A stretch of 24,026 bases of DNA from a virus. A model generated the notes under the pieces. The model saw nothing but the letters and a program-made list of their open reading frames with translations, had not been told where the DNA came from and searched no databases. Below are positions 7,487 through 22,813 of this stretch, piece after piece; position 1 is the stretch's first letter; each line of letters starts with the position of its first letter. Location: the IMG/VR virus record IMGVR_UViG_3300032282_001595, positions 1 through 24,026 of that record. One strand, given 5' to 3'. A program made the position numbers and the translations under genes.

Positions 7487-7972
7487 TTACGTTTTTTTAT
7501 TGTTGGCTAGGATAGACTTTAGTAGTTCGTTTCTGTCTACTAAGCTACCTTCTCCTAAAGGAGTAGACTCAATTTCTTCAGTTTTACTGTTAATCTTATG
7601 GTCTAATTGTGCTTTCTTAAGCTGTAAATCAAGCATTTTCAGTTTTTTATTAATCTTTGCTGTCTTAGCAGTAATAGCATGTCCAAGCATACTGCTTGCA
7701 CTATTGAATATCTCACTAGCAAAGCGACTGTCTACTTGCATACCTAAATCCATCAAGTCTTTATAACTGCTAGTAGCTAACTCAGCTAATGAATCCATCT
7801 CAGTATCGCTAGCTTCTAAGCCACGTACTTGAGGTAATGCATTTTCAATCTTAGATAATGTATCATATGTTTCTGTGGTGATGATATCCATTTCGGCATG
7901 TTGTATTAATTCCTCATTTACAGAGGAATTGTCTTCTTCTAATTCAAATAATTCAGTGAGTTTTTTGGTCAT
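7487..7972 (-). CDS. 16: Terminase small subunit (T4 gp16-like)
   Basis: 161 residues, close to the 164 of T4 gp16. The core TETYDTLSKIENALPQVRG, then SSYKDLMDLGMQVDSRFASE, SSMLGHAITAKTAK and KLKMLDLQLKKAQLDHK, follows the family pattern of the T4-type terminase DNA-packaging small subunit: a helical hairpin that oligomerises into a ring. The last ~35 residues (SLVDRNELLKSIL) match the usual conserved tail. The protein recognises or licenses concatemeric DNA and stimulates the gp17 motor ATPase/nuclease. The gp17 gene is not next to it or anywhere in this window, unlike T4 where 16 and 17 are adjacent. It follows the gp4 gene closely, with a late box overlapping the gp4 stop codon and an inverted repeat that covers its own ATG. 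Confidence 0.88.
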   Translation of the reverse strand: MTKKLTELFELEEDNSSVNEELIQHAEMDIITTETYDTLSKIENALPQVRGLEASDTEMDSLAELATSSYKDLMDLGMQVDSRFASEIFNSASSMLGHAITAKTAKINKKLKMLDLQLKKAQLDHKINSKTEEIESTPLGEGSLVDRNELLKSILANNKKT

Positions 7973-8000
7973 ACTGCTTTTCCATATAGCAGTATTTATT
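7971..8000 (-). promoter_or_regulatory. Late promoter box plus hairpin hiding the gp16 start codon
   Basis: On the minus strand AATAAATA (8000-7993) is a late box. ATACTGC (7995-7989) starts within it and pairs exactly with GCAGTAT (7977-7971), which includes the first two bases of the gp16 start codon. The 11-base loop carries GGA. A late transcript starting near 7987 would lack the left arm; RNA reading through from the gp4 gene would contain the whole 7-bp hairpin. Confidence 0.6.
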
Positions 8001-14278: not shown

Positions 14279-14620
14279 ATGAGACCAATATGCAAGACAT
14301 GCGGCAAGAACAATACTGCTGTAAATTACAAACGTGAATGGGTCACACATTATCGTAGCATGTGTGATGAATGTGGTCGTAAGAAGAATAAGCTTAAGCC
14401 AAGAGAACCTAGTTGGCAAAAAGCGGGGTACAAGAAAAAAGCCACATGTGATTTATGTGGCTTTAAGAGTTTATATCCTAGTCAAACTACAGTGTTTCAC
14501 ATAGACGGAAACTTAGAACATACTACATTTACGAATCTACGTACAGTATGTCTCAATTGTATTGAGGTAGTTAAGCGAAAAGACGTTCCTTGGCGTCGTG
14601 GCGACTTAGAAGTTGACTGA
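14279..14620 (+). CDS. Zinc-binding HNH-like protein
   Basis: 113 residues with four CxxC pairs: C5/C8, C29/C32, C57/C60 and C91/C94, enough for two zinc ribbons. FHIDGN (H74, D76, N78) followed by NLRTVCLNC (N86) has the look of an HNH beta-beta-alpha-metal site. The usual double His and the His after the last Cys are absent, so cleavage activity is uncertain. YKKKATCDLCGFKS before it is typical of a small zinc-ribbon family that, from memory, is widespread in cyanophage-like T4 relatives, normally as a lone gene. It is on the opposite strand to its neighbours and overlaps the end of the dNMP kinase gene by 50 bases, tail to tail. No ribosome site is visible upstream. It could be a homing-type endonuclease remnant, a late-transcription cofactor, or another DNA-binding protein. 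Confidence 0.8.
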   Translation: MRPICKTCGKNNTAVNYKREWVTHYRSMCDECGRKKNKLKPREPSWQKAGYKKKATCDLCGFKSLYPSQTTVFHIDGNLEHTTFTNLRTVCLNCIEVVKRKDVPWRRGDLEVD

Positions 14621-15233
14621 TTGTATTGTGTAAATCGTCAATTGATCCGTTGTTATCAATATGGTAATCATATTCTAAGCCTACACTTGAATATTCACTT
14701 GCATGGATCTTTGCTCTGTCTAGTTTTGATTTACTAATAGACCATAGACTATTGCCATTTGGTCCTTTATTATATGCTTTGGCAGCATCATACCATTCAG
14801 GTTCAGGGCCTCTGTTCGCACGTAATGTAATTCCTCCAGCGCTTTTTATAGCATTTACTTCATTAGGGAATCTACAATCAGTAATGACAATATCATCCTT
14901 AGTTTGTCGTAGTTTGTTCTCTACACTTGCAACCCAAATATCATCATGGAAGTTAGAACGACATACTTCTGTACCCCATTGTTGCAATACCCAACGCGGT
15001 GTAAGTTCGGGGATGCCTAATCGGACACTCCACCAAGGATCAACTTGCTCACGCCATTTACGACTAGATTTAGTTGTACCCTCAAGCATGTCTCTGTCCC
15101 AGCCAAAGACATTTGCTACTGCATCTTTAAGACTTGCCGCAAAACTTATTCGTTTGAATTTATGATTGGTTACTAGATAGTCAGCAATAGTGTCTTTGCC
15201 GCTACCAATCAATCCTGTCACCCCTATAATCAT
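14571..15233 (-). CDS. 1: Deoxynucleoside monophosphate kinase (T4 gp1-like)
   Basis: 220 residues from the chosen start. It transfers phosphate from ATP to dNMPs for phage DNA synthesis. The P-loop GLIGSGKDT is at residues 7-15 (numbered from the chosen start), directly after MIIGVT. It is followed by ISFAASLKDAVANVFGWDRD, then PRWVLQQWGTEVCR with a phage-kinase-type substrate region, and VITDCRFPNEVNAIK (Walker-B-like). The C-terminal YDYHIDNNGSIDDL is standard for the family. A longer reading frame opens at 15275, but AGGAGA (15243-15238) lies four bases before the ATG at 15233-15231 and the P-loop then starts at the usual place; the upstream ATG has no ribosome site. It follows the gp13 gene and carries a CCTAAATA box upstream, suggesting late re-expression. 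Its end overlaps the plus-strand HNH-like gene. Confidence 0.9.
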   Translation of the reverse strand: MIIGVTGLIGSGKDTIADYLVTNHKFKRISFAASLKDAVANVFGWDRDMLEGTTKSSRKWREQVDPWWSVRLGIPELTPRWVLQQWGTEVCRSNFHDDIWVASVENKLRQTKDDIVITDCRFPNEVNAIKSAGGITLRANRGPEPEWYDAAKAYNKGPNGNSLWSISKSKLDRAKIHASEYSSVGLEYDYHIDNNGSIDDLHNTISQLLSRHDAKERLFA

Positions 15234-15280
15234 ACGTTCTCCTGTAGCACTGATTGTATTACTTTGAGATGACATATGCT

Positions 15281-15290
15281 AGTATTTAGG
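15281..15290 (-). promoter_or_regulatory. Possible late promoter box for the dNMP kinase gene
   Basis: On the minus strand CCTAAATACT lies 48 bases before the chosen start codon, right after the gp13 stop codon, and overlaps the palindrome GGTTAACC (15289-15296). It is a weaker match (two consensus positions differ). Confidence 0.4.
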
Positions 15291-16055
15291 TTAACCTTGA
15301 ATCCATGTCATCGGTTGACTATGGTCAACATATCGTTTTAACTCATCAATGAGTTGGGTTTGCATTGCCGAGCCTTCTGCTTTAAGTGCGGTACCGTTTA
15401 ACGTTGTGCCGCCGCCGGGACCGGCTAGACTAGCAAACTTTTCACGTGCTTCACCTAAAGTTAGTTTTAGTGTAGCTAAGGTAAAGTCCCCAATCCAAAC
15501 ACCTGATCCCGAATCCTGTAATAATTCTGCCTCCGGACGTTGTAAGTCACCCCAAATCAATATCTGCTCACCAGTTGCCTTTACATCACGTACTAATTTG
15601 ATTTGCTTTGTTACTGGATTGAATGTATATACAATATACCCACCAAACATACGTGCGGCTAATTCAATATATCCTGCGTAAAAGTCATAGGTTGCTAAAC
15701 CACCTGCATGATTATAATTAAGCAAATATGTATTAAGAATTGCACTGCTAAATGGATCGAAACTACTGGAGCTTGGTCCTGTTTCTAACCCAATAGTTCT
15801 GCGAAAAACTTGTCTTATGTTGATAAATTCGTCGGGAAGAGTATAAGTGTTAACGTGTGCAGTTAAACCCATCAATGTATAAGATTCTACTGTTGAATTT
15901 TGGGCACGTTGACGATAAACTTGAAGTGCATATTTGTATGCGGCTTCGTAATGTGCAGGATCAAGTTCAATATCTATCATTCCGCCGCCAAGACGCAATT
16001 CTAGATTCTTAAACAATCCCTCTTTTAATTCTTGTAGTGAAAGTGCTGTTGCCAT
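15291..16055 (-). CDS. 13: Neck / head-tail connector protein (gp13-like)
   Basis: 254 residues (T4 gp13 has 309). LGGGMIDIELDPAHYEAAY, ALQVYRQRAQNS, YTLPDEFINIRQVFRR and LGEAREKFASLAGPGGGTTL followed by LNGTALKAEG are blocks I recognise from the gp13-type neck or adaptor protein of cyanophage/pelagiphage-like T4 relatives. There it closes the packaged head and seats the tail together with gp14. An IELAARMFGGYIVYTFNPV beta segment and a Gly-rich loop lie between. The assignment to gp13 rather than another adaptor is from memory of family patterns. Its ATG is preceded by an AGGT ribosome site held in the right arm of a 12-bp inverted repeat that follows the MazG gene. Gene 14 is nearby but on the other strand, unlike T4 where 13 and 14 are co-transcribed. 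Confidence 0.72.
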   Translation of the reverse strand: MATALSLQELKEGLFKNLELRLGGGMIDIELDPAHYEAAYKYALQVYRQRAQNSTVESYTLMGLTAHVNTYTLPDEFINIRQVFRRTIGLETGPSSSSFDPFSSAILNTYLLNYNHAGGLATYDFYAGYIELAARMFGGYIVYTFNPVTKQIKLVRDVKATGEQILIWGDLQRPEAELLQDSGSGVWIGDFTLATLKLTLGEAREKFASLAGPGGGTTLNGTALKAEGSAMQTQLIDELKRYVDHSQPMTWIQG

Positions 16056-16058
16056 GTT

Positions 16059-16092
16059 GTTTACCTGATATGTATGTATTTATCAGGTAAAC
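16059..16092 (-). promoter_or_regulatory. 12-bp perfect inverted repeat overlapping late box and gp13 ribosome site
   Basis: On the minus strand GTTTACCTGATA (16092-16081), ten bases, TATCAGGTAAAC (16070-16059), then AAC and ATG. The late box GATAAATA (16084-16077) begins in the left arm and ends in the loop, so RNA started there (near 16071) has only the right arm. RNA coming through from the MazG operon has both arms, and AGGU, eight bases before AUG, would be base-paired. Confidence 0.75.
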
Positions 16093-16099
16093 AGGGATA

Positions 16100-16534
16100 T
16101 CAAATATCGTTATGTTGACGATTCTCACTATTAAACACATTAAACTCACCACCGGGATAACGTGCTTTGAGTTTCTCTACGTTCTCAGCAATCACATCAT
16201 TAGGATCTAGTCGGAGTGCCCTGCAAGCATTAATCCAGTACCACATGATATCGCCGAGTTCTCGTTTCATGTGAAATACGTTATCCTCACTTAGTGCTTT
16301 ACCCTGAAAGAATATCTTCTTAGGAATCTCAATAAATTCACCTGACTCTGCGGCTAATCCTAGACATGCAGTAAGTAACAAAGGAACGTTAATATCTGGA
16401 CCATGTTCTTGTGTTGCATCGTCAAAGTTACCGTCTAGTTCATCACATCGGTCCATGAAGGTTGTTAAGTCGTTGCTTGGTTTACTTGTCACAGCCTTTA
16501 CAAAATCGCTATATTTGTTTAAATCTACACTCAT
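16100..16534 (-). CDS. mazG: MazG-type nucleotide pyrophosphohydrolase
   Basis: 144 residues in the all-alpha NTP-pyrophosphatase fold. The metal-binding pattern is clear: E63-x-x-E66 in AAESGEF, then E92-x-x-D95 in KRELGDIMWY, then a helix ending NVEKLKARYPGG, which is the usual MazG tail. IPKKIFFQGK between the two motifs is typical of the phage subgroup. Such enzymes hydrolyse (d)NTPs to monophosphates; phage MazG has been proposed to alter host nucleotide pools or (p)ppGpp signalling, though for cyanophage enzymes dGTP/dCTP are the better-supported substrates. It is third in an operon read from a sigma-70-type promoter and overlaps the 60-aa gene by 4 bases (ATGA). The dNMP kinase downstream could act on its products, although it is separated by gp13. 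Confidence 0.9.
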   Translation of the reverse strand: MSVDLNKYSDFVKAVTSKPSNDLTTFMDRCDELDGNFDDATQEHGPDINVPLLLTACLGLAAESGEFIEIPKKIFFQGKALSEDNVFHMKRELGDIMWYWINACRALRLDPNDVIAENVEKLKARYPGGEFNVFNSENRQHNDI

Positions 16535-16713
16535 ACTTTATCCTTTAACATTGTTTTTCTACCTTCTTCTCCAATAAGCATATCAAAGAGTTCAATCACA
16601 CGTTGTAGCATAGCGCAATTAAGCATAAGCAAATCACGTCGGTCATCGCACATCATAATTTGTCGGTCGATAGGTTCTATCAACTCTGACATTCGTTTTT
16701 CAATATCTGTCAT
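16531..16713 (-). CDS. Small conserved-looking helical protein, unknown function
   Basis: 60 residues with no recognised domain. The sequence MTDIEKRMSELIEPIDRQIM, then CDDRRDLLML, IELFDML and a Lys-rich end, predicts two or three helices and a soluble protein. It has one base between it and the 383-aa gene and overlaps mazG by 4 bases, so it is translated with them. Coupling to mazG and the early-type promoter suggests a host-takeover or nucleotide-related role, which is inference only. Confidence 0.7.
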   Translation of the reverse strand: MTDIEKRMSELIEPIDRQIMMCDDRRDLLMLNCAMLQRVIELFDMLIGEEGRKTMLKDKV

Positions 16714-16714
16714 G

Positions 16715-17866
16715 TTAGAATGCTTTCAAAATAATCATATTCTCATTGAACCTACCATTAGGCGCAGTTGCTACTGCTTTAATCTCTTTAAAGTACTTAC
16801 GTGCCGCAGGTTTGCTACCCATTAGTTCTTTAATCTGTTCACCCGGCTTACGCAATGTTTTGACTTCGCTTGCATTACTGTCAAAGCCTAGGATTGTATT
16901 GCCCTTAACTGTAAAGGACTTGCTGTACTCGTCAGCAATGTAATGATGCACTTTGCGTTTTGCGGTGTCATAAACCCACGCCTCGCTTGCACCTTGCAAC
17001 TTAGTAGGATGCACACTAATCAAATCAAGTTTGTTAACTGGATCCTTGAATTCTTTCAAATACTTCAACTTAGCAACAATCTTCTCAACAGGAACTGCTT
17101 TACGTTTGCGAGGTGCTTTGCTTGCTTTCTTAATTGAGATATAGCTGTTCAAGTCACCTAGGACACTATCTACAAATTTGATAAGATTACGCACTTGAAC
17201 CTTACCTAAGAACGCATAAGCCTCGTTCAGGTCTTTATCTGTACCTTCACTCAGTTCATTGAATTCTTCTGCTTTGCGCTTCCAAATCTCAACAATGATA
17301 GGGATATGTTGTGGCATGACATTAAATTTTGCAACAATGTCAACTGTCTTTTGTGTAGTCTTACCTGTAGTAATGTACTCGTCAAGCAAACCTTCAAGTT
17401 CACCTGCGGCTTCGCCTGCTTTTTCACGCATCAGTTCCTGAATGTTAGGACGATTCGTAGGCTCTTTTTCAACGACTTCTGGCTTGTGAACCAATTTCAA
17501 CAGTCGGCTAATTTCATTCTCTAATGTAATTGATTCATGTTCGTTCAGTTCAAGACCACGCAAACTCATACGTGATAACCAGCAAATTGTCATAATAAAT
17601 TCTGACTCATGCACCTTACGCAAATATTTTGCATCACCGGTTCGTTCATGGCTATCCAAATACTGACACAATAGTTCTTTAGCATCCTTTTTGCCATAGA
17701 AACGATTGTACCATGTGAAACTGTTAACTAGTGCTAACTTACGACCATCAGAATCAGGTTGCAACGGAAAGTAGGGCTCGTCACCCATGTACTTTTGGTC
17801 TGCGTCCCGAGGATTCAGTGCTTTAATAAAGTGGTCTGATGTTGCTTTGGGTTTACGTGTTGCCAT
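16715..17866 (-). CDS. Conserved-looking protein of the early mazG operon, unknown function
   Basis: 383 residues. Residues ~1-60 include KALNPRDADQKYMGDEPYFP and LALVNSFTWYNRFYGKKDAK, a soluble, charged N-terminal domain. RPNIQELMREKAGEAAGELE (~145-165) begins a long helical part. Residues ~245-260 are very basic (SKAPRKRKAVPVEK), which could contact nucleic acid. A beta-rich C-terminal part contains AWVYDTAKRKVHHYIA and GNTILGFDSN. I do not recognise a catalytic motif. From memory it belongs to a family found in aquatic T4-like phages without assigned function. The ATG is preceded by AGGAG at five bases and by a full-consensus sigma-70 promoter at 17891-17919. It is the first gene of the operon with the 60-aa protein and MazG. 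Confidence 0.8.
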   Translation of the reverse strand: MATRKPKATSDHFIKALNPRDADQKYMGDEPYFPLQPDSDGRKLALVNSFTWYNRFYGKKDAKELLCQYLDSHERTGDAKYLRKVHESEFIMTICWLSRMSLRGLELNEHESITLENEISRLLKLVHKPEVVEKEPTNRPNIQELMREKAGEAAGELEGLLDEYITTGKTTQKTVDIVAKFNVMPQHIPIIVEIWKRKAEEFNELSEGTDKDLNEAYAFLGKVQVRNLIKFVDSVLGDLNSYISIKKASKAPRKRKAVPVEKIVAKLKYLKEFKDPVNKLDLISVHPTKLQGASEAWVYDTAKRKVHHYIADEYSKSFTVKGNTILGFDSNASEVKTLRKPGEQIKELMGSKPAARKYFKEIKAVATAPNGRFNENMIILKAF

Positions 17867-17890: not shown

Positions 17891-17919
17891 ATTATATATG
17901 ATTGACCATTAATTGTCAA
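17891..17919 (-). promoter_or_regulatory. Consensus sigma-70 (early) promoter of the mazG operon, with overlapping palindrome
   Basis: On the minus strand TTGACA (17919-17914) and TATAAT (17896-17891) are separated by exactly 17 bases, a full-consensus host promoter, with RNA start expected near 17884. TTGACAATTAATGGTCAA (17919-17902) is an 18-base palindrome with one mismatched pair, covering the -35 box and half the spacer, so a repressor site is possible. AGGAG and ATG follow within 30 bases. Confidence 0.88.
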
Positions 17920-21461: not shown

Positions 21462-22721
21462 TTAAGCGTTATTGATTTTAACTGTTATGTTTACTGTTGC
21501 CGCATCTAATGTCCATGGAACACTTGAATCAGTAGCAAATTGTGTACCACCACTGCCACCTGCTTTACGAACAACTGTGCAACGACGGTTATTGATTTTC
21601 TTAACCCAATATTCACCACCAGCACTGTCATAAGCAGTCAAATCCATTTCACCGGCTGCATTTGCCGCGGCTGATGTTTTTAAGTTGCACAATCCTACGT
21701 TTGAGCCGTCTGTTACTTTGTAACGGCGTGCGCCTTTTTGACCGATAATATCAACAATCTTACGACTTCCACCGATGTATGCGTATGGAATCAAAGCATT
21801 TTCTTGATTACCTGCGCTATAAGGAACACCGTCATCAGTAGTTAATACTGGAGTTGCGGCTGCGGCACCACTACTGAAAGTGATTGCGGCATCTGCTACT
21901 GTTGTGTAACCAGAACCTTTTTCTGTAACTACAATACCGCTAACACCGTAAGTAATAGTTGCGGCTGCACCTGTACCAGTACCACCTGAGAAACTAGCTG
22001 GATTGCTTGCCGCTACAGTATAGTCACCTTGAACTACCACAGTACCAAATGAGTATAAGCCCCAGTTTGAACCAGTGAAACTCAATACTAGACCGGTACC
22101 GTTATTATCGCCACCACTTCTAGCTGTTGTTGTAGCAGTAAAACCATTTACCCCACCTGCCATGCTTGTTGGGAAAGCGCCTGTGCCTGTCCAGATACCC
22201 TGTTGTTCAACTGCAATACTAGTTGCAGTGCTACCAGAAACTGCTGTAATACGAACACGCAATGCTTGTGATAAGTTAGCGTGAGTGAATGTAACTCTGT
22301 CACCTTCAGTTCCGTTTGTAACATCATACAATGAACCACCGTTAGTAATACCTGGTGTACCAAGACCTACGATAGCTGAAACTGGGAAAGTGGCTGCCGC
22401 TACCTTTGTACCACCTACTACAGTCAATACATCACCTACATAATATCCTGTACCATTGGTTGTTGTAGCTGATGATAATCCATTACCATGAACGATACCA
22501 GTAGCACGAACACCACCCGGAAGATCAGGAGTGCTGAATGTTGCTGTCGGTAAACCAGAAGTATATGCGCCTACTGTGTTAACTGTTACGCTTGCTACGC
22601 CTTCACCACCAATACGGTCATCATTGTAGTTTTGACTGTTTGATAGATTGCCAGTAGTCTGGTCGCCACCGGTACCGATGTTACGGTTACCGAAAAATTT
22701 CTTGTTTAATCTTGCTGCCAT
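21462..22721 (-). CDS. Gly/Thr-rich beta-repeat virion structural protein
   Basis: 419 residues; no T4 gene name. The start MAARLNKKFFGNRNIGTGGD resembles a short conserved opening of structural proteins in marine T4-like phages. The middle is made of beta units: TNGTGYYVGDVLTVVGG (~86-104) and EKGSGYTTVADAAITFSSG (~265-285), which resemble modules in the sheath insertion and the right-end fibre. The C-terminal domain (SRKIVDIIGQKGARRYKV; YDSAGGEYWVKKINNRRC; TLDAATVNITVKINNA) is a distinct, Cys-bearing fold that, from memory, recurs in uncultured phage structural proteins. AAAGGAAAA precedes the ATG. With its own late box at 22805-22812 and a terminator after the gene, it is a single-gene unit. 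A decoration, whisker or fibre-associated role is inferred from composition and neighbours. Confidence 0.72.
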   Translation of the reverse strand: MAARLNKKFFGNRNIGTGGDQTTGNLSNSQNYNDDRIGGEGVASVTVNTVGAYTSGLPTATFSTPDLPGGVRATGIVHGNGLSSATTTNGTGYYVGDVLTVVGGTKVAAATFPVSAIVGLGTPGITNGGSLYDVTNGTEGDRVTFTHANLSQALRVRITAVSGSTATSIAVEQQGIWTGTGAFPTSMAGGVNGFTATTTARSGGDNNGTGLVLSFTGSNWGLYSFGTVVVQGDYTVAASNPASFSGGTGTGAAATITYGVSGIVVTEKGSGYTTVADAAITFSSGAAAATPVLTTDDGVPYSAGNQENALIPYAYIGGSRKIVDIIGQKGARRYKVTDGSNVGLCNLKTSAAANAAGEMDLTAYDSAGGEYWVKKINNRRCTVVRKAGGSGGTQFATDSSVPWTLDAATVNITVKINNA

Positions 22722-22813
22722 TTTATTTTTCCTTTAAGTTAGTTGGCGTTCTAGGCCTACGCGGTTGACCTCCGCGTAAACTCTCATTTAAGAGCGAACA
22801 CTCTTATTTATCT
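22722..22813 (-). promoter_or_regulatory. Late promoter box and structured leader of the 419-aa gene
   Basis: On the minus strand GATAAATA (22812-22805) overlaps the stop codon of the upstream fibre gene. AAGAG/CTCTT (22805-22790) form a 5-bp inverted repeat around the expected RNA start near 22799. Further down, TACGCGG/CCGCGTA (22778-22758) form a 7-bp stem with a 7-base loop, then AAAGGAAAA and the ATG. The ~78-base leader is the longest in the window with clear structure. Confidence 0.6.

Follow-up and report, generated by a model that had tools for sequence, protein, structure and literature searches.

The leader of a gp13-like neck protein gene, found in a viral DNA stretch of 24,026 nucleotides (hereafter the window), very probably acts as a stage-specific translational switch of the kind described for genes e, soc, 49 and I-TevI of phage T4. 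The evidence comes from sequence comparison and folding: a hairpin would cover the Shine-Dalgarno (SD) sequence in early read-through messages and would be absent from late ones, so that the neck protein appears to be made only late. The hairpin recurs in a large group of T4-like jumbo phages, and its pairing is preserved among relatives by compensating changes.

Architecture and predicted folding of the gp13 leader

The minus strand of the window carries, in this order, a 383-aa gene, a 60-aa gene, mazG, the gp13-like neck gene and a dNMP kinase gene (Table 1). The best match of an isolate to the window's gp13 clade stayed below 60% identity, and no cultured member of this clade was found in the phage collection. 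Elsewhere in the window, positions 22719-22795 (minus strand) match the Rfam freshwater-2 RNA (RF02980; 53.5 bits, gathering threshold 49.9), a cis-regulatory motif that immediately precedes a gene with its start at 22721.

Table 1 Features of the gp13 locus and its surroundings (window coordinates)
Feature	Position	Strand	Basis
5′ arm of hairpin, TGTTTACCTGATA, complementary to SD region	16081-16093	-	sequence; compensating changes in relatives
3′ arm of hairpin, TATCAGGTAAACA, with Shine-Dalgarno AGGT at 16066-16063	16058-16070	-	sequence; folding
Hairpin loop AATACATACA, with predicted late +1 A16071	16071-16080	-	sequence; +1 inferred by T4 rule
Late promoter box GATAAATA (T4 TATAAATA type), 29 nt before AUG	16077-16084	-	invariant in A1/A2
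gp13-like neck / head-tail adaptor Ad2 gene, 254 aa	15291-16055	-	phrog_211, E 3.8e-24; tblastn to annotated neck proteins
mazG, upstream, co-directional, presumed early	16100-16534	-	phrog_229, E 1.4e-44; PF03819
60-aa gene, upstream operon of mazG	16531-16713	-	
383-aa gene, upstream operon of mazG	16715-17866	-	phrog_11903
Host-type promoter TTGACA-N17-TATAAT, 12/12, driving upstream operon	17891-17919	-	promoter pattern
dNMP kinase gene	14571-15233	-	phrog_139, E 4.4e-49; start by comparison with relatives
-10-like TACAAT of dNMP kinase leader, in weak hairpin (stronger in relatives)	15253-15258	-	

A perfect inverted repeat with fully (100%) complementary arms, separated by 10 nt, occupies the gap between mazG and gp13. 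An earlier reading of the sequence alone had recognised the repeat and measured it as 12 bp, while its length is 13 bp. Within the window no second perfect repeat of at least 13 bp with a loop of 3-15 nt exists, and none arose in 40 dinucleotide-preserving shuffles. An Rfam scan gave no match at the hairpin. The SD sequence AGGU, 7 nt before the gp13 AUG at 16055, is located in the 3′ arm, and the box GATAAATA shares its first four bases with the end of the 5′ arm and continues into the loop; both placements agree with the sequence-only reading. The box deviates from the T4 form at one position and is the dominant late-box form of the group, accounting for 116 of 206 start-associated ATAAATA sites on 8 contigs. 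The total number of ATAAATA motifs in the window equals the chance expectation; the minus-strand copies lie mostly just before gene starts, and four further minus-strand boxes (413, 7481, 7999, 10578) stand 24-28 nt before such starts.

By the T4 rule the late gp13 RNA is predicted to begin at A16071, 13 nt after the start of the box, where a late 5′ end had also been anticipated. Given this predicted start site, late RNA would lack the 5′ arm in nearly all window-clade leaders, as the box overlaps the end of the arm. T4 late promoters require no -35 element. The bases just upstream of the box would thus be free to form a 5′ arm. That the phage uses gp55-type late transcription is indicated by contigs of its relatives, the window itself being a 24-kb fragment: three of six (G001, G002 and G004) encode a gp55-like late sigma factor (phrog_234). 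For the phages CBB and GAP32 an ATAAATA late motif has been described, for CBB also a gp55-like factor (PMC5259590).

The operon of the 383-aa gene, the 60-aa gene and mazG is preceded, as the sequence-only reading had proposed, by a host-type promoter; it matches at all 12 positions, and we infer from it that the operon is early. Of the 57 relatives whose flank was long enough, 46 have such a promoter upstream with at most one mismatch, and 2 have one on the opposite strand. A pattern scan of the minus strand from this promoter to gp13 detected no terminator-like site. The putative late gene gp13 thus follows a co-directional unit without a terminator, a unit whose early timing is deduced from its host-type promoter.

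Folding of the two alternative leaders, a check suggested beforehand, gave the expected difference. In read-through RNA of the window the SD is predicted to be buried (-16.9 kcal/mol, z -4.25), while the late RNA is predicted to be open (-0.7 kcal/mol). The 88 distinct leaders that follow a co-directional gene have a median predicted SD accessibility close to zero (0.0004) in the RNA started upstream and of 0.53 in the late RNA. As a control, the same analysis recovered the hairpins of T4 genes e and 49. Most of the top scores among the 206 start-associated boxes of the 8 contigs belong to gp13. A hairpin as a general feature of late promoters was therefore rejected, most other start-associated boxes on these contigs being without one.

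According to the switch model, early RNA from the promoter at 17919 would extend over all three genes of the operon and enter the neck gene. In this RNA the SD segment would pair, as covariation and folding indicate, with the 13 nt that precede and partly cover the late box, and ribosomes could not initiate translation of the neck protein. At the late stage, transcription by a gp55-type polymerase would begin from GATAAATA; the RNA, beginning about 13 nt after the start of the box, would carry no 5′ arm, its SD would be unpaired and it would be translated. Nevertheless, only a few nucleotides separate the mazG stop codon from the 5′ arm, and a ribosome terminating there could partly open this arm, which argues against a tight switch.

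Covariation, gene orientation and alternative explanations

A scan of IMG/VR with the neck protein of the window yielded 80 related loci, and gp13 proteins of isolates as queries added 49 more in all, mostly PA5oct-like and CBB-like. Among the 94 distinct gp13 leaders, the SD is hidden in a hairpin in most of those with a co-directional upstream gene. Across the leaders of the 80 loci the box GATAAATA is constant and the bases before it vary (CTCCA, TTACCT, TTTCCT, TCCCC, CTCCC), with the SD-bearing bases changing to match. Since a MAFFT alignment with mixed loop lengths placed some arms wrongly, a fixed-geometry set of 30 leaders with one loop length was used instead. Here 89.5% of the cells pair and 8 of 13 pairs show double compensating changes; compensated cells number 53, compared to 18.4 ± 3.5 after shuffling (0 of 500 shuffles) and 4 to 13 in slid registers. 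RNAalifold recovered the identical helix unprompted. When arms were swapped among 44 distinct hairpins, own arms matched at 0.85 and arms of others at 0.57 (z = 11). Paired changes in relatives, the comparative test named in the sequence-only reading, are therefore strongly supported by both covariation and the swap control. Within the variable core G.U mispairs outnumber A.C mispairs (12 vs 3), which favours pairing in RNA of the gp13 strand.

In a tree, three deep clades carry hairpins with different arms. RaK2, 121Q, CBB, GAP32, XaC1, Munch and Hallingskeid, all co-directional, possess a gp13 hairpin of unrelated arm sequence, and the PA5oct-like clade has a downstream arm form (AATACTCTA / TAGAGGTATT). 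In RaK2 (locus L123, 2941-2980) and 121Q (L194, 2402-2420) the annotated gp13 probably starts inside the hairpin. Because the SD lies in the 3′ arm, the start should be located further downstream (ATGTACGAT and ATGTCTTAC, respectively), and the hairpin thus helps to correct start codons. Two other loci (L020, approximately 2484-2990, and L015, same region) have mazG and gp13 separated by about 480 nt in which no gene is convincing, with a long hairpin at the beginning; the gp13 hairpin is weaker there, and an Rfam search of the region gave no match.

A hairpin that protects from read-through would not be expected at loci with a divergent upstream gene. Indeed, the median hairpin z is -4.0 for co-directional and -0.5 for divergent leaders (88 vs 6 leaders, p 4e-5), a p value that overstates independence since orientation and hairpin are both inherited. 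With one vote for each 70% protein cluster, a hairpin is present in about 4 of 7 co-directional and in 0 of 8 divergent lineages (about p 0.03, calculated by hand), a modest contrast. In this vote L177 was counted with a hairpin on the basis of accessibility, L125 without one (SD partly open), and L149 was left out, its upstream orientation being unknown. Divergent loci, e.g. those of Agrobacterium phage Atu_ph07, Sinorhizobium phage Phosso and Vibrio phage 2.275.O, keep a late-type box and have no comparable hairpin; in the divergent SCTP-2 a weak interrupted stem is possible (z -0.7). In the tree the divergent lineages fall within or beside hairpin clades. Co-directional exceptions with an absent or weak hairpin are PA5oct (L122), L166, L171, L033, L035, L054, L071 and L076. 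The rule that no hairpin is found where the upstream gene points away represents a testable general principle.

Four other explanations were weighed against the switch. The hairpin could be an intrinsic terminator that ends the early operon before the neck gene, the late promoter merely lying inside it. We consider this unlikely: the window has ACATGG after the stem and no U-tract, a pattern scan finds no terminator at the hairpin, and 49 of 57 window-clade leaders are devoid of a run of at least 4 T before the ATG. A T-run often follows the stem in the RaK2/CBB/XaC1 clade (XaC1 AGAGGATTTTTTTT, 121Q AGGTGCTTTTTT), although RaK2 itself lacks it. A double role is thus plausible in that clade, and termination could be an additional function in the CBB clade.

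Somewhat less probable still, the repeat could act as a palindrome in the DNA to which a regulator protein binds, either repressing or assisting the late promoter. A near-perfect palindrome over a promoter is a common operator form, and in T4 I-TevI binds over its own late promoter (PMC2988022). Nevertheless, arm sequences vary freely among close relatives (CTCCA, TTACCT, TTTCCT, CTCCC) with pairing kept, which makes an operator unlikely; apart from the box and the GG of the SD nothing is constant, leaving no conserved recognition sequence in the arms. Moreover, G.U pairs are tolerated more than A.C, and divergent lineages keep the late-type box without the arms.

It is very improbable that pairing aids translation or stabilises the message without hiding the SD, as in T4 genes 25 and 38, where structure sets the SD-AUG spacing. 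Structured helper leaders are known in T4 (PMC3014915), but a spacing device is improbable for gp13 because the SD itself is paired, and the spacing is already 5-9 nt in most leaders, so there is nothing to shorten. A chance repeat, or shared ancestry without function, might be suspected in an AT-rich region with arms common to related sequences, but this least probable explanation is already refuted at the sequence level by the shuffles, the double compensating changes, the swap control and the different arms of three deep clades.

Leaders of the dNMP kinase gene and of other genes

In most window-clade loci the dNMP kinase gene directly follows gp13. Its longest open reading frame in the window begins at 15275, and its true start is likely ATGATTATAGGG at 15233. 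The end of the gene is overlapped by a 113-aa open reading frame on the opposite strand (14279-14620, plus) with many Cys/His pairs, for which searches of Pfam and PHROG gave no match.

Many relatives (L022, L041, L017 and others) show a strong hairpin around a host-type -10 element in the dNMP kinase leader (e.g. ACTCCTGTAGTATAATATATACTACGGGAGT), where the loop contains or adjoins the -10, the 3′ arm holds the SD and in some cases a T-run is present; in the window (15233-15290, minus strand) this hairpin is weak. A -10 with at most one mismatch is present in 54 of 55 dNMP kinase leaders, the fold z is below -2 in 41 of 55 and the SD is paired in 39 of 50. We tentatively suggest that a promoter placed in a hairpin over the SD of the next gene may be a repeated device, combined with a late box at the neck gene and with a host-type -10 at the dNMP kinase gene. 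If true, each such gene would be translated only from RNA of its own promoter, whatever transcribes through. The idea that early RNA has to cross gp13 to reach the dNMP kinase gene was dropped, as many relatives carry an own host-type promoter before this gene.

Other leaders with a late box also contain inverted repeats. Before a 161-aa gene of the window (start 7972; leader 7972-8000, minus strand) AATAAATA is followed by a stem, CTGCT...AGCAG, that immediately precedes the ATG and differs in sequence among relatives (CTACT/AGTAG). The SD is located in the loop and the 5′ arm lies between the box and the predicted +1. This leader was also found at G001:296639, G002:40533, G004:121295 and G006:15024. 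A gene for a 53-55-aa protein of unknown function (G001:270962, G003:119403, G005:87155) has a leader resembling that of T4 gene 49, AAATACTC / GAGTATTT over the SD, with the 5′ arm beginning inside the late box. At G002:128301 (minus strand) a late-box leader before a 101-aa gene can form a hairpin over SD and AUG (GGTGTTCATTATAAATACTCTCAGGAGTATATAATGGACACC).

Comparison with T4 and other known systems

T4 genes e, soc, 49, I-TevI/II/III and segB as well as Aeh1 mobE are late genes carried on long early or middle RNAs, in which the ribosome binding site is hidden by a hairpin that is absent from late RNA (PMC3014915, PMC2988022). The I-TevI leader hairpin was tested by mutation, and the mechanism was also shown for mobE (PMC3014915, PMC2988022). 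Leaders of this type with embedded late promoters had so far been described for a small number of T4 genes and for homing endonucleases, and their conservation was patchy.

The gp13 leader resembles that of T4 gene e in the hairpin over the SD (in e also over the AUG) of early read-through RNA, in the position of the late promoter in the 5′ strand of the hairpin and in a late RNA predicted to lack the 5′ arm (PMC3014915). In contrast, gp13 is a neck protein that is not homologous to lysozyme. Gene e has two boxes, at the base and at the loop end of the arm, while gp13 has one, at the loop end, with the arm extending upstream. Furthermore, the e hairpin is reported to be absent in Aeh1, 44RR, 25 and 31, whereas the gp13 hairpin is kept across dozens of lineages. 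With soc (compared by description only) and 49, gp13 shares the position behind an early or middle unit and a ribosome binding site hidden in read-through RNA. Gene 49 (AATAAATACCCTTAT / GTAAGGGTTTATT) and the distal box of gene e share a 5′ arm that extends from within the box in the downstream direction. The window clade resembles the proximal box of e, its 5′ arm comprising bases before the late box together with the first half of this box. The sequence-only reading had described the logic as exactly that of T4. This holds for function and not for geometry, since the arm of T4 e and 49 is mostly at or downstream of the box and that of gp13 extends upstream.

I-TevI/II/III, segB and mobE likewise have a ribosome binding site sequestered in early or middle RNA and freed late, but they are selfish homing endonuclease genes and gp13 is a structural gene. 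A T4-type late motif before structural genes is shared with the late promoters of CBB and GAP32 (PMC5259590). A search of that article for "hairpin" gave no match, and the gp13 leader structures of the two phages are not discussed there.

Covariation over dozens of environmental lineages and isolates such as RaK2, 121Q, CBB and XaC1 provides strong comparative support for such a leader on a structural gene. In some jumbo T4-like phages it is probably RNA structure, and not termination, that silences a virion gene within an early operon. The gp13 switch is best read as the working principle known from T4 applied to a new, non-homologous gene, with unusually wide conservation.
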